A stretch of 64,000 nt of DNA from Candidatus Eremiobacteraceae bacterium (lineage in GTDB: Bacteria > Vulcanimicrobiota > Vulcanimicrobiia > Eremiobacterales > Eremiobacteraceae). The notes beneath the pieces were generated by a model. The model was not told the origin of the DNA. It was given only the letters and a program-made list of their open reading frames with translations, and made no database searches. The DNA is taken from positions 1-64,000 of the forward strand of contig DATFYX010000066.1 in the NCBI GenBank assembly GCA_035314825.1. The letters are read 5' to 3'. Positions 48,909 to 54,814 of this stretch are shown here, piece after piece (positions within the stretch are counted from its first letter, which is position 1; each line of letters begins with the position of its first letter). Position numbers and translations under genes: made by a program.

Positions 48909-49265
48909 ATGAATCTCGCCAGCCTCGTGAGTCCGGGCAGCGCGACTAAGCGCACCGTAGATTTCGCTCCCGGCGACACGATCAAAGTGCACACGCGCGT
49001 CACCGAAGGCAATAAAGAGCGCATCCAAGCGTTCGAGGGCGTCGTGGTGGAGCGCCGCCTCGGCGGCCACAGCGCCAGCTTCACGGTGCGCCGCCTGTCG
49101 CATGGCGTCGGCGTCGAACGCTCGTTTTTGGTGCAATCGCCCAGGATCGAGAAGATCGAAGTCGTGCGCCGCGGCAGCGTGCGCCGCGCCAAGCTCTTCT
49201 ACTTGCAAGAGCGCGTCGGCAGCAAAGCCACACGGATCAAAGAGCAGAAGCAAACCACGCAGTGA
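48909..49265 (+). CDS. rplS: 50S ribosomal protein bL19
   Basis: A 118-residue protein: [84 protein letters not shown] lies upstream. It is at the 30S-50S interface. The stop overlaps lepB by four bases (GTGA). Confidence 0.96.
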
Positions 49266-49954
49266 GCCCAGGAGCTCTTTTCCTCATCATCGGGCTGCTG
49301 CTCGTCGCCCGTGTCGTCATCGGCTTGCGTCCGGCGACGATCCCCGACGACAAGCAGCGCGTGGCTATCCGCGAGTACCTCGACGCGTTCATCGTCGCAG
49401 GTATCGTCGCACTGGTCTTGATGCAATTCGTCGTGCGCACGTTTTGGATCCCGTCCGGATCCATGGAGCCGACGCTCGACGTCAACGACGTTCTGCTGGC
49501 GAACGAAGTCCAATATCATCTGTCGAATCCCAAGGACGGTCAGATCGCGGTGTTCGCGCCGCCCCCGCAGCTCGGCACGACCGATTTCATCAAACGCGTC
49601 ATGGCGGTGCCCGGCGACACGTTCAAGGTCAAAGACGGCGATGTCTATCGCAACGGCGTCAAGCTCGACGAACCGTATCTGCCCAAAGGCCAGCGCCCCA
49701 ACTACGATCTCGAGATCAAAGATTACAGCATCTACGTGGACGGCATGCCGCTGGATCCGCAGCGCTCGCAGCTTCCGCCCAAGTCGGCCTGGCAGGCGCC
49801 TGATCGAGTGCCTAACGGCTACTATCTCATGTTGGGCGATAACCGCAACGATTCGGACGACAGCCATTTGTGGGGATTCTTGCGGCGCGATCAATTCGTG
49901 GGCCACGCGTTCTTCGTGTTCTGGCCGCCCAAACACGTAGGCGCGCTCCGCTAA
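49262..49954 (+). CDS. lepB: Signal peptidase I (first paralogue)
   Basis: A 230-residue membrane protease. Two N-terminal hydrophobic helices, then the catalytic Ser in [11 protein letters not shown], the Lys in [13 protein letters not shown], and [20 protein letters not shown]. It removes Sec/Tat signal peptides from the many exported proteins here. GTG start in the rplS stop. A second paralogue is at 54137-54814. Confidence 0.95.
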
Positions 49955-50015: not shown

Positions 50016-50330
50016 ATGCGCCCTATCGCCTTTGTCGTATGCGCGCTCATACTCGTCACTGCCGCTGTCTCGTTTTCCACCGCGCCTGCCCTCGCGGACA
50101 CCTATAGCGGCACTGTGACGCATGTCTCCACCAACAACATCAAGGTCAAGAACAGCGCCGGCATGGAGCTCAGCTTCCTGCTCGCGCCGTCGTTCGACCA
50201 GGTCTTCTCGACCGATGGGAAGACGACATATCAGATGAAGGACGTCAAGCCCGGCCGGCACGTCAAGATCGTGTACCACCAGCAGCTGGGCATCCGCTAT
50301 GCGGACAAGATCATCTTCTTAAGTTCGTAG
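50016..50330 (+). CDS. Small exported protein of unknown function
   Basis: A 104-residue protein with signal peptide (FVVCALILVTAAVSFSTAPALA) and a beta-rich mature part with DTYSGTVTHVSTNNIKVKNSAG and DVKPGRHVKIVYHQQLGI, an OB-like or SH3-like pattern. Its ribosome site is strongly buried in the upstream hairpin, which suggests regulated synthesis. Not recognised. Confidence 0.65.
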   Translation: MRPIAFVVCALILVTAAVSFSTAPALADTYSGTVTHVSTNNIKVKNSAGMELSFLLAPSFDQVFSTDGKTTYQMKDVKPGRHVKIVYHQQLGIRYADKIIFLSS

Positions 50331-50332
50331 GC

Positions 50333-50656
50333 TTAGGTCTTGCGCAGCTTCCAGATGTGCTCCGCCGGCCAGCGGCGCGCCCAGCCTAGGGGCACGTAGT
50401 CCCCGTACGTGGATTCGGCGTCATCCGGCGGCTGGATCTCGATGAGGTCCTCAGCCGTCAAGCCGCAATGCCGGAACAGCCGGATCCACTCCCCGTAGGG
50501 CAATTGGAACACGACGGTCTCCTCGTCTTCGCCGCCGCGCATGCCGAAGTAGGTGCGCTGCAGCGACTCTTGCACTTCGTCGGCCTCGTCGCTCCAGCAC
50601 AGCTCGAGGATCGGCGTCGCCATGTTGAACGCGAATAGGCCCCCGGGCCGCAGCAA
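50333..50656 (-). pseudogene. C-terminal fragment of a SAM-dependent methyltransferase
   Basis: The 107-residue frame begins at a TTG (MLRPGGLFAFNMATP), which is the middle-to-end part of a Methyltransf_11-type domain (the LRPGG step), and continues with FGMRGGEDEETVVFQLPYGEWIRLF and ending KLRKT. The SAM-binding N-terminal half is absent; the upstream 240 bases do not encode it in any frame. It is most likely a remnant. Confidence 0.65.
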
Positions 50657-50900
50657 AGGGCCAGCGGATCTCGATGTGATGCGCGTTCAAGTTCTCAAAC
50701 GTATGCCGCGCGATTCAGAATTCTTTGTCGTTCGGCTCGTCTCGCACATCTGAGAACATGTTCACCCACTCGATGCTCACGGAAAGAAGGTCCAGCGTGA
50801 CAGATGGATCTGGCGCAGAACCTCGCCCGTGTGTTCAGCGTCACATGGTTCCACGAACGTGGAGATGACGCCGGCGTGCTTCTCGTAGGCCAAGGAAGGC

Positions 50901-50930
50901 GGCCCGCTGCACTCAACGGTGCGGCGGGCC
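50901..50930 (+). other. Twelve-base-pair hairpin ahead of the GIY-YIG gene
   Basis: GGCCCGCTGCAC (50901-50912), loop TCAACG and GTGCGGCGGGCC (50919-50930) pair over 12 positions with one G-U. It resembles a bidirectional terminator stem or mobile-element end, though no U-run follows. Its 3' arm starts with GTG 50919, an otherwise possible start codon, making GTG 50946 the better start. The rest of 50657-50900 holds nothing I recognise. Confidence 0.5.
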
Positions 50931-50945
50931 GATATTCTGATTACC

Positions 50946-51488
50946 GTGTCAGCCGATTCAACCTACTGCATCATCAACCCGAACCGACTCATCGCGAAGA
51001 TAGGTCGCGCCAAGAACGTCCTGCGCCGGCTCGAGACCTTGCAAACCGATAGCGCGGATCAGTTGTATCTGGCCGAGGTCATCGGACCCCTTCCGGGCAT
51101 CAACGTCGAGCACTCGTTGCACAAGGCGTTGGAGCCGTGGCGCGTTTACGGCGAGTGGTTCGATGGGCCGATTGCGCTGTCGGTCTTCCAGCAAGTCAAA
51201 GCCCAACTCACGCACTCGCCAGTCGCCGCGACCATACGCCGCCAGAACGCATGGCTTCTCGCCGCCGTGATCATCGCCGCATTGGCCGCCGCTCTCAGCG
51301 CGTTCGTGGGCGACTACCGAAACACCGCATGGCTGACGCTCGGCGTCATAGTCGTCGCAGTTCTTGCGTTCGGCCAGCGCGATAAGGTCCTCGCCATTGC
51401 GCCCAGTGCGCCGACACCGACCATGCCGCCTGTGCCGAGCGTCGTCCGCGACGAGGTCGAGGAGGCCCGAGAGCGGCGGGGTCCGTAG
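50946..51488 (+). CDS. Membrane-anchored GIY-YIG (T5orf172-type) nuclease-domain protein
   Basis: About 180 residues. The N-terminal 85 residues fit the T5orf172/GIY-YIG domain: TYCIINPNRLIAKIGRAKNVLRRLETLQT (Tyr, KIG, Arg) and NVEHSLHKALEPWRVYGEWF (Glu of EHxLH, final GEWF). Two transmembrane helices follow (LLAAVIIAALAAALSAFV and AWLTLGVIVVAVLAF), then a Pro-rich stretch and an Arg/Glu-rich tail. The nuclease domain would face the cytoplasm. A membrane-attached nuclease of this fold points to a defence or DNA-uptake role (inference). The tail is repeated at 51915-51985. Confidence 0.65.
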   Translation: MSADSTYCIINPNRLIAKIGRAKNVLRRLETLQTDSADQLYLAEVIGPLPGINVEHSLHKALEPWRVYGEWFDGPIALSVFQQVKAQLTHSPVAATIRRQNAWLLAAVIIAALAAALSAFVGDYRNTAWLTLGVIVVAVLAFGQRDKVLAIAPSAPTPTMPPVPSVVRDEVEEARERRGP

Positions 51489-51496
51489 CCAAGACA
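51425..51496 (+). repeat. Direct repeat, copy 1 (intact gene tail)
   Basis: This 72-base stretch covers the tail of the GIY-YIG gene (PPVPSVVRDEVEEARERRGP) through its stop. It recurs 490 bases downstream with roughly 87% identity, including the stop codon and the following AAGACA. Confidence 0.8.
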
Positions 51497-51514
51497 AAGA
51501 AGCAGAGAGAGATC

Positions 51515-51694
51515 ATGGTTATGGATGATGGGGAAATGGATGAAATAAGACTTGCAATAAACGATATACAACGATCCAGGGCGGAAGTGCTAGAGTTTGC
51601 CTACCTCAGGCTGGGCAAGACGCTGGAGGGCGCACTCGCCGACGCAGACGCCAAGCTACGAGAACTCATCGCGAAGTGGCGTGTCCGGAAATAG
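51515..51694 (+). CDS. 59-residue acidic coiled protein, unknown
   Basis: A short gene below usual cut-offs: ATG 51515 follows GAGAGAGA. The product starts MVMDDGEMDEIRLAIND and continues as an Ala/Leu/Arg-rich helix (QRSRAEVLEFAYLRLGKTLE) ending KWRVRK. It starts 27 bases after the GIY-YIG gene stop and may be its partner (antitoxin or regulator is one guess). No family seen. Confidence 0.45.
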   Translation: MVMDDGEMDEIRLAINDIQRSRAEVLEFAYLRLGKTLEGALADADAKLRELIAKWRVRK

Positions 51695-51900
51695 AATCCG
51701 GCGAATCTTACGAATCCTGGACCATTCGAACCATCTTCGCGGAACAGATGCGGAGATGCGCCGACGAACTCGAAGTCCGGATACTACCGGAGCAATTCGG
51801 CGGGCGACGAGTTCGGCGCGCGCCACCCGGGGGAGAGGCCCGCCTCAGCGAGATCCCCATTGAGACTCTCGATCACTGTAATACACCGGCGGAAGAATAA
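51676..51900 (+). CDS. Doubtful small ORF
   Basis: A 74-residue frame from GTG 51676, overlapping the 59-residue gene. The first half (ESYESWTIRTIFAEQMRRCADELEVRILPEQF) looks helical and protein-like; the rest looks random. It may be a fragment of a longer gene damaged by the local duplication. Little else in 51695-52004 can be supported. Confidence 0.25.
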   Translation: MACPEIESGESYESWTIRTIFAEQMRRCADELEVRILPEQFGGRRVRRAPPGGEARLSEIPIETLDHCNTPAEE

Positions 51901-51978
51901 GTGGCTTGCTACGTGCCGCCTGCGCCGAGCGTCGTCCGCGATGAGGTCGAGGAAGCGCGAGAGCGCCGCAGTTCGTAG
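51901..51978 (+). pseudogene. Orphan tail of a second GIY-YIG-type gene
   Basis: From GTG 51901 the frame reads a short VPPAPSVVRDEVEEARERRSS and stops at 51976-51978. This is the C-terminal tail of the GIY-YIG protein without its nuclease and membrane parts, left by a partial duplication or deletion. Confidence 0.6.
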
Positions 51979-51985
51979 CAAGACA
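51915..51985 (+). repeat. Direct repeat, copy 2 (orphan tail)
   Basis: Second copy of the 51425-51496 repeat, with a few substitutions and one deleted base after the stop. After both copies an ATG follows the stop at 26-27 bases, so the duplication appears to include the start of the downstream ORF. Confidence 0.8.
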
Positions 51986-52004
51986 ATGGAAAGCCAGTGA
52001 AATT

Positions 52005-52400
52005 ATGGATGCTAGGGATGCTGAGCAAATGGGGCTAGATTCATCAAGGAGAACACGGCGCGCTTGGAGCTCATCGTCGCCGATGATTCCGCTCCCGAGG
52101 CCCACCGGGCCATCGCGCGCGCTACGCCGGCATTGTGTTTCATTTCTTGCCCGCTCCCTACATAACGCCAGCGGATCGGTAGGGGCGGGCCACGATTTGG
52201 AACGCCCAGGTAAACCCGAGCATCATACGGCGCGAACGCTGAAGGACCGCGCGGGGTTTCTTGTATGCATGACGATTGTGGGCGTCGGGATTCTATTGTT
52301 GCATTTGTATCGTCCAATGGGCGCGGATCTCGCCATGCTTGGTCTGTTCATTCTCGCGATACTCGCGGCCGAAGTGGCGGGTCGATGGCCCAGTGGATGA
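52005..52400 (+). CDS. Doubtful ORF with two membrane helices at its end
   Basis: A 131-residue frame, MDARDAEQM at the start. Its last 50 residues form two clear membrane helices (FLVCMTIVGVGILLLHLY and MLGLFILAILAAEVAG), similar in layout to the GIY-YIG protein. Between them, another frame (52034-52160) reads FIKENTARLELIVADDSAPE, more protein-like than this one, so a frameshift is likely. The real gene may be a short membrane protein starting near 52268, or a decayed relative of 51515-51694. Confidence 0.3.
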   Translation: MDARDAEQMGLDSSRRTRRAWSSSSPMIPLPRPTGPSRALRRHCVSFLARSLHNASGSVGAGHDLERPGKPEHHTARTLKDRAGFLVCMTIVGVGILLLHLYRPMGADLAMLGLFILAILAAEVAGRWPSG

Positions 52401-52408
52401 AGGCTAAC

Positions 52409-52612
52409 CTAGGCTATATTGACGATGTCCTCGATGCGGATGTCCGCCAACAGACCTCCTTGCACGACGCCCGAGAGGTCCGGTTGCGGCATGACATTGT
52501 AGATGCCCTCATCCGCTCGGGATAGCGCGCCGTCGAGAACCACGCCGCTCTTTAGCGTGACCTTCCTGCGTGTCGTGCCGTCAGCTAGTTTTCTAGCGTC
52601 TTCGTCTCTCAT
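52409..52612 (-). CDS. 67-residue protein, possible small beta-barrel
   Basis: ATG 52612 has GAGGTG five bases upstream, a good ribosome site. The N-terminus is charged, followed by RKVTLKSGVVLDGALSRADEG and ADIRIEDIVNIA, a pattern typical of SH3/Sm-like five-strand barrels. No family is named. It lies alone; the 207 bases toward the MFS gene hold nothing recognised. Confidence 0.5.
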   Translation of the reverse strand: MRDEDARKLADGTTRRKVTLKSGVVLDGALSRADEGIYNVMPQPDLSGVVQGGLLADIRIEDIVNIA

Positions 52613-52819
52613 AGTACACCTCGTCTGACCGGATCGCCGGTAAGCGGCTGCGCGATCGCGGCACCTCTTCGGCGCTCGCGTGAACGAGCGGAACATCTGC
52701 GCCGCGCCGCAGCCGAATTCCGGGATGTCCTCGCCGGCTTGGCTTGATACTGGGCGCTTGTCCGGTCCCAGAATTGCCGGTTCTTGAGCTCGTGATCGCG
52801 CAGCGTCATCAAGGTCCTC

Positions 52820-54136: not shown

Positions 54137-54814
54137 GTGCGACAGCCGGCTCCTCGATGGCACGGTGGCGGTCAACTCGATCCGACCGCTGCGTATGCCA
54201 TCGTCGCGGACGCCAATGCCGTTCCCCAGCCGCTGCCGGGCGAGCTTGCAACCCCCTCTCCGTTCATCCGCGCGCTGGTCCGCGCCGCGAAACTCGCGGC
54301 AGAAGCGGCTGCGTTGCTCATCTTGCTCGCGCTGTTCTTCGTTCGCCTGCCGCAGGTCAGCGGGCACTCCATGGAACCGCAGTTGCGCGCCGGCGAACAC
54401 GTCGTCATCAACACGCTCGCGTACGATCTGCGCGTGGGCGGCGGCGATCGCCCGCTGTTCGACCACGCGCTCTACCCGATCGAGCGCGGCGACGTCGTCG
54501 CATTCATCCACGCAGGCGCCGACGGAGAAGAAGTCTATCTCAAACGCGTCATCGGTGTGCCCAACGAGACGGTCGCGATCACACGCGGCGCAGTCATCGT
54601 GAACGGCCTGCAGCTGCCCGAACCGTACCTATCCAAGCCCGATGCCGCGAATTCGCCCGCGCTGCGCGTGCCGGCAGGCTCGTATTTCGTGCTCGGCGAC
54701 AATCGCGCCGAGTCCGACGACTCGCGCGCGTTCGGCGCCGTGCCGCGCACGGCGATCATCGGCCGGGCCCAGCTGGTCGTATGGCCGCTCAACCGTGCCG
54801 CGCTCATCCGCTAA
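54137..54814 (+). CDS. Signal peptidase I (second paralogue)
   Basis: A 225-residue SPase I-type protease with one membrane helix (AALLILLALFFVRLPQ). Catalytic Ser in VSGHSMEPQLRAGE, Lys in VYLKRVIGVPNETV, and YFVLGDNRAESDDSRAFG. It is the first gene of a 5-kb operon. GTG 54137 is the nearest acceptable start; no good ribosome site was seen. Confidence 0.9.
   Translation: MRQPAPRWHGGGQLDPTAAYAIVADANAVPQPLPGELATPSPFIRALVRAAKLAAEAAALLILLALFFVRLPQVSGHSMEPQLRAGEHVVINTLAYDLRVGGGDRPLFDHALYPIERGDVVAFIHAGADGEEVYLKRVIGVPNETVAITRGAVIVNGLQLPEPYLSKPDAANSPALRVPAGSYFVLGDNRAESDDSRAFGAVPRTAIIGRAQLVVWPLNRAALIR

Follow-up and report, generated by a model that had tools for sequence, protein, structure and literature searches.

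The window considered here, a stretch of 64,000 nucleotides from a Candidatus Eremiobacteraceae bacterium, carries an insert of about 2 kb surrounded by housekeeping genes (trmD, rplS, lepB, MFS, lepB, GTPase, kinase and ABC transport), and the features recognised in and around it are collected in Table 1. Comparison with related genomes indicates that this insert is lineage-specific and interrupts a SAM-methyltransferase gene whose middle is lost, since remnants of the gene stand on both sides, whereas another member of the family, G006, possesses the gene intact (Methyltransf_11, E 3e-21) between the same flanking genes at the syntenic place. Similarity to the intact G006 gene ends at 50656. 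The flanking genes, a small ExtJ-like gene and the MFS gene, lie tail to tail at a distance of about 40 bp in the two genomes from the same genus, and a search of 147 genomes with the DNA of the insert returned short, chance-like matches only. The insert may be decaying; decay beside the nuclease gene had been seen in an initial annotation made from the sequence, and the methyltransferase gene broken on both sides, together with a partial duplication within the lineage-specific insertion, bears this out. As for the flanks themselves, two type I signal peptidase genes of the same housekeeping block stand on either side (49262-49954 and about 54190-54814), and the ExtJ-like protein (50016-50330), which is small and exported-looking with a weak similarity below the cut-off, was found once or twice in each of the 14 searched genomes of the group.

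Table 1. Features in and around the insert, in window coordinates, with the evidence for each.
Feature	Coordinates	Strand	Evidence
3′ remnant of SAM-methyltransferase gene, left edge of insert	50333..50656	-	74% identity to intact gene in G006 (L042)
Frameshifted protein fragment, VEPCDAEHTGEVLRQIHLSRWTFFP / SIEWVNMFSDVRDEPNDKEF	50700..50900	-	no Pfam family
GC-rich 13-bp stem-loop, no T-run	50901..50930		z = -3.6
GIY-YIG (MUG113/T5orf172) nuclease with C-terminal two-helix anchor	50946..51488	+	180 aa, GTG start; Pfam, AlphaFold2, conserved residues, codon usage
Nuclease domain core, residues ~6-75: Y7, K18-I19-G20, R28, E55, H59, R66, G69-E-W-F72	50961..51170	+	alignments, fold matches
Membrane hairpin (predicted); modelled helices 92-121 and 124-143	51219..51374	+	hydropathy, AlphaFold2 helices
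Duplicated segment, copy 1: last 21 nuclease codons (predicted helix 165-177), intergenic stretch, first nucleotides of next ORF	51424..51539	+	self-comparison
59-codon ORF, proposed partner; probably no gene, or unrecognisable	51515..51694	+	no homologue, weak codon score, chance expectation
Duplicated segment, copy 2: orphan tail PPAPSVVRDEVEEARERRSS*, no nuclease domain upstream	51914..52032	+	self-comparison
ORF with two hydrophobic stretches in C-terminal half; doubtful gene or fragment	52005..52400	+	hydropathy, codon score, pairwise comparisons
67-aa ORF within insert	52409..52612	-	distant homologue in G075
5′ remnant of the interrupted methyltransferase gene (rearranged), right edge of insert	52642..52809 (about)	-	comparison with G006

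The nuclease ORF encodes a real member of the MUG113/T5orf172 GIY-YIG family by profile, residues and fold. In Pfam profile searches it lies above the cut-offs of both PF13455 (MUG113; E 2.1e-7, 31.9 bits, curated cut-off 22.3) and PF10544 (T5orf172; E 6.4e-6, 27 bits, cut-off 20), in agreement with the domain first assigned to it. When aligned with 60 viral relatives (61 sequences), the protein retains all of the family-invariant residues, namely K18, G20, R28, E55, H59, R66 and G69-E-W-F72, as well as the nearly invariant Y7 and I19, and a second alignment, built from plasmid and phage homologues, shows the identical set; neither alignment reveals any loss of catalytic residues. An AlphaFold2 model built on the 61 sequences (mean pLDDT 85) shows residues 1-80 as a GIY-YIG domain in the expected beta-beta-alpha-beta-alpha order at pLDDT 90-98 (about 95), followed by the two helices of the hairpin and a short C-terminal helix at 165-177; a single-sequence model was poor (pLDDT 49) and was set aside. 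Foldseek matched the fold to T5orf172/GIY-YIG proteins in the viral library BFVD (top E 2e-6, TM-score 0.78 over the target), and in the PDB both I-TevI and UvrC appear within the first five matches, weakly (E 1.7 and 2.8). Judged from these sequence features, the protein would be expected to cut DNA.

The start of this gene was initially placed at about 50901 or 50919, the latter as in the open-reading-frame list (50919-51488). This is probably too early, and the GTG at 50946 is preferred because it lies downstream of the stem-loop and leaves beta-1 complete; no clear Shine-Dalgarno sequence stands upstream of it. The stem-loop was recovered as first described; it has no match in Rfam and, lacking a T-run, is not a clear terminator. 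Codon usage of the nuclease gene is host-like (GC3 0.80, codon score 0.33): most of 16 reference frames score 0.42-0.66, and three of them, which may not be real genes, score lower (-0.13 to 0.08).

Behind the nuclease domain, hydropathy averaged over 19 residues reaches 2.56 (residues 104-122) and 1.62 (residues 126-144), as fits the two transmembrane helices that had been proposed, and together with the predicted model these values suggest an inner-membrane location. RR stands before the first helix, R and K come after the second, and the loop between them is short with almost no net charge; by the positive-inside rule this charge pattern would put both protein ends inside, and the nuclease domain and the tail would therefore both face the cytoplasm. 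Matches of the hairpin to SLATT and holin-like profiles were weak and below significance.

This anatomy, a T5orf172 domain followed by a C-terminal transmembrane hairpin and a tail, is rare. Across 147 genomes of the phylum there are 29 T5orf172 matches, among which the window protein alone has a hydrophobic hairpin after the domain, and none of 80 viral relatives has a hydrophobic anchor. One of the 14 plasmid and phage proteins examined shows the same order in a weaker form. This protein, WP_331722594.1 (269 aa, from a plasmid of Streptomyces sp. NBC_00122; L087), has an N-terminal MUG113/T5orf172 domain, two hydrophobic segments and a proline-rich tail, but its segments are less hydrophobic (1.43 and 1.29) and spaced further apart, and its C-terminal half has no significant similarity to that of the window protein. 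A search of the open-access literature turned up no description of a T5orf172 protein whose C-terminal part is a transmembrane hairpin. In the phylum sample the gene occurs as a singleton, and it is absent from both same-genus genomes; among genome contigs no close relative appeared with the protein alone as query, and one soluble Sphingobium protein appeared with a two-sequence alignment as query.

Phages carry T5orf172 genes in abundance as mobile genes (PMC10448857), and the phage homing-type T5orf172/MUG113 nucleases share with the window protein the same catalytic domain and the KIG, R, E..LH and GEWF signatures (PMC10448857). This abundance, seen also in the 80 viral contigs found here, favours the main rival to the reading developed below, according to which a stray gene of this family, homing-endonuclease-like or accessory, came from a phage or plasmid into a neutral site, its hairpin being incidental and its product having no dedicated defence role. 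Such an origin accords with a lineage-specific insert that sits within a broken gene and holds other fragments. However, phage members have DNA-binding domains, of the Zn-finger or another type, no membrane anchor occurs among the viral relatives, and homing endonucleases have DNA-binding domains where the hairpin stands; the host-like codon usage also counts against a stray arrival. We regard this explanation as somewhat unlikely, though a serious contender.

A three-part module of nuclease, membrane part and small partner had initially been proposed, the partner being an acidic protein of 59 residues. An ORF of 59 codons does begin 26 nt past the nuclease stop, but its product is not markedly acidic, having 12 D/E and 11 K/R, a pI of 5.3 and a near-neutral charge. 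Its codon score is 0.06, with antisense controls at 0.04 and 0.11, and for 24.6% of positions in this GC-rich window an ATG ORF equally long or longer (59 aa or more) begins no more than 50 nt away. Searches of Pfam, NCBIfam, PADLOC and PHROGs gave no match to the ORF, and 100 related genomes yielded nothing but chance pieces of long frames. Viral contigs, plasmids and phages contain no homologue either, and hence there is no co-occurrence with nuclease homologues in any of these collections, which leaves the three-part module unsupported. Having no homologue, a weak codon score and a length expected by chance, it is unsupported as a partner of the nuclease and is probably not a real gene. One could also imagine a toxin-antitoxin-like pair with the nuclease as the toxic half and the 59-aa product as the antidote, given the fact that both ORFs lie on the same strand 26 nt apart and that a duplicated segment covers their junction. 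Nevertheless, the nuclease has relatives that exist without this ORF, and with chance alone providing such a frame at about 25% of positions, no homologue in the collections searched and a weak codon signal, such a pair is very improbable.

The duplicated segment is present in two copies that are 79% identical over 121 bp (E 3e-22), and it takes in nothing beyond the final 21 nuclease codons, the intergenic spacer after them and about 25 nt belonging to the following ORF. Read from the alignment, five of the eight differences in the codon part are synonymous, suggesting that both tails were once coding, although the number is too small for proof. Of the partial second copy that the initial annotation had reported, the orphan tail stands, whereas the two-helix ORF (52005-52400) was rejected as a second copy of the nuclease helices, the likeness not exceeding 10 residues; nor does this ORF resemble the 59-aa protein, and its codon score marks the first half as non-coding. 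Overall, the earlier observation is partly confirmed. The neighbouring 67-aa ORF has 43% identity over 49 residues (E 5.8e-4) to a protein of G075 (L105:1456-1665) whose gene directly precedes a DUF6680 gene, and these proteins of 67-69 aa are possibly an accessory small-protein family.

Surrounded as it is by a broken methyltransferase gene, an orphan tail and frameshifted fragments, and starting at a GTG with no clear Shine-Dalgarno sequence, the nuclease gene might itself be a recent pseudogene in a decaying insert, its product no longer made. The intact frame, the complete set of invariant residues, host-like codons with a GC3 of 0.80 and the predominance of synonymous differences between the tail copies (5/8) speak against this, and we hold it to be highly doubtful.

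The closest functional precedent is offered by SNIPE (PD-lambda-1). This GIY-YIG nuclease is bound to the membrane and cleaves phage DNA as it is being injected; mutation of E414 abolishes defence, and removal of the transmembrane part leads to toxicity (Saxton et al., 2026; PMC13190303). Both are single genes in which a cytoplasm-facing GIY-YIG domain is tethered to the inner membrane by a transmembrane part, for the window protein by prediction, and the catalytic glutamate of SNIPE may have its counterpart in E55, which is invariant across the 61 sequences. The order, in contrast, is reversed: SNIPE has an N-terminal transmembrane part, DUF4041 and a C-terminal nuclease, while the window protein has its nuclease N-terminal, beginning at residue 5, and its two-helix hairpin C-terminal. 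The window protein also differs in its size of only 180 aa and has no DUF4041 (no PF13250 match to E 1); a search for DUF4041 across the phylum gave no match, in which the control was likewise silent. Because DUF4041 is absent and the anchor stands at the other end, the window protein is not a SNIPE by membership, but by analogy it may work like one. The anchor is a variable feature even within SNIPE, since 34% of the homologues have no transmembrane part (PMC13190303). Another single-gene system with an N-terminal GIY-YIG nuclease, CMoRE (PD-T4-3), serves phage defence; its C-terminus is a modification-sensing domain, where that of the window protein is a membrane anchor (PMC12923530).

By analogy with SNIPE, we tentatively propose that the window protein is a membrane-anchored nuclease that cuts foreign DNA at entry, a reading that we favour while holding it a little short of probable. 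In this proposal the C-terminal hairpin would tether the 180-aa nuclease to the inner membrane, holding a weakly specific enzyme off the nucleoid and at the entry point of foreign DNA, where phage DNA might be nicked or cut while being injected; the 59-aa ORF would have no demonstrable part in this. The domain and fold, the conservation of R28 and E55, the hairpin, the codon usage, the insertion, the SNIPE precedent and the Streptomyces plasmid counterpart all point in this direction. Counting against it, Pfam finds neither DUF4041 nor any other recognisable DNA- or phage-sensing domain in the protein, the gene is a singleton in an insert that may be decaying, PADLOC gives the protein no significant match (best PDC-S57, E 0.037), and it finds no known defence gene around the insert. 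The label of a defence locus is unproven, because the island is an isolated insert among housekeeping genes and the PADLOC matches of the neighbours are generic (a Ser/Thr kinase, ATPases/GTPases); taken together, the earlier interpretation is partly supported, namely in its membrane-anchored GIY-YIG nuclease and the decay beside it. A membrane-facing position would equally suit a nuclease that processes incoming transforming or conjugated DNA, or one engaged in envelope-linked nucleic acid turnover, with no part in phage defence, and similar nucleases on Streptomyces plasmids lie beside plasmid genes. Yet the neighbourhood has no competence or conjugation genes and the nuclease is missing from the same-genus genomes, which leaves this alternative improbable.

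A bolder form of the entry-nuclease proposal would be a minimal counterpart of SNIPE without DUF4041, for which a GIY-YIG domain of 75 residues plus a C-terminal transmembrane hairpin would suffice to cut DNA as it enters, and which would have evolved independently, its anchor lying at the other terminus; this we consider distinctly unlikely. SNIPE tells self from non-self by place and not by sequence, through the membrane tethering of its nuclease (PMC13190303), and a much smaller protein that has both ingredients, nuclease and tether, but no sensor domain would test whether tethering is enough by itself. Should the gene instead be no more than a stray mobile nuclease, its locus would represent ordinary accessory-gene turnover.

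Two further groups of T5orf172 proteins came to light in the class to which the window genome belongs. The first, a conserved family whose members measure about 180-210 codons, occurs in several genera (L075, L079, L081, L066 and others), is unnamed in the libraries used and has NE.F or NELF in the position of GEWF. The second consists of proteins of about 420-460 codons, also from several genera (L060-L064), for which PADLOC gave weak PDC-S57 matches only (L062 and L063); their T5orf172 domain is C-terminal, and in some of them a single stretch of moderate hydrophobicity lies mid-protein.
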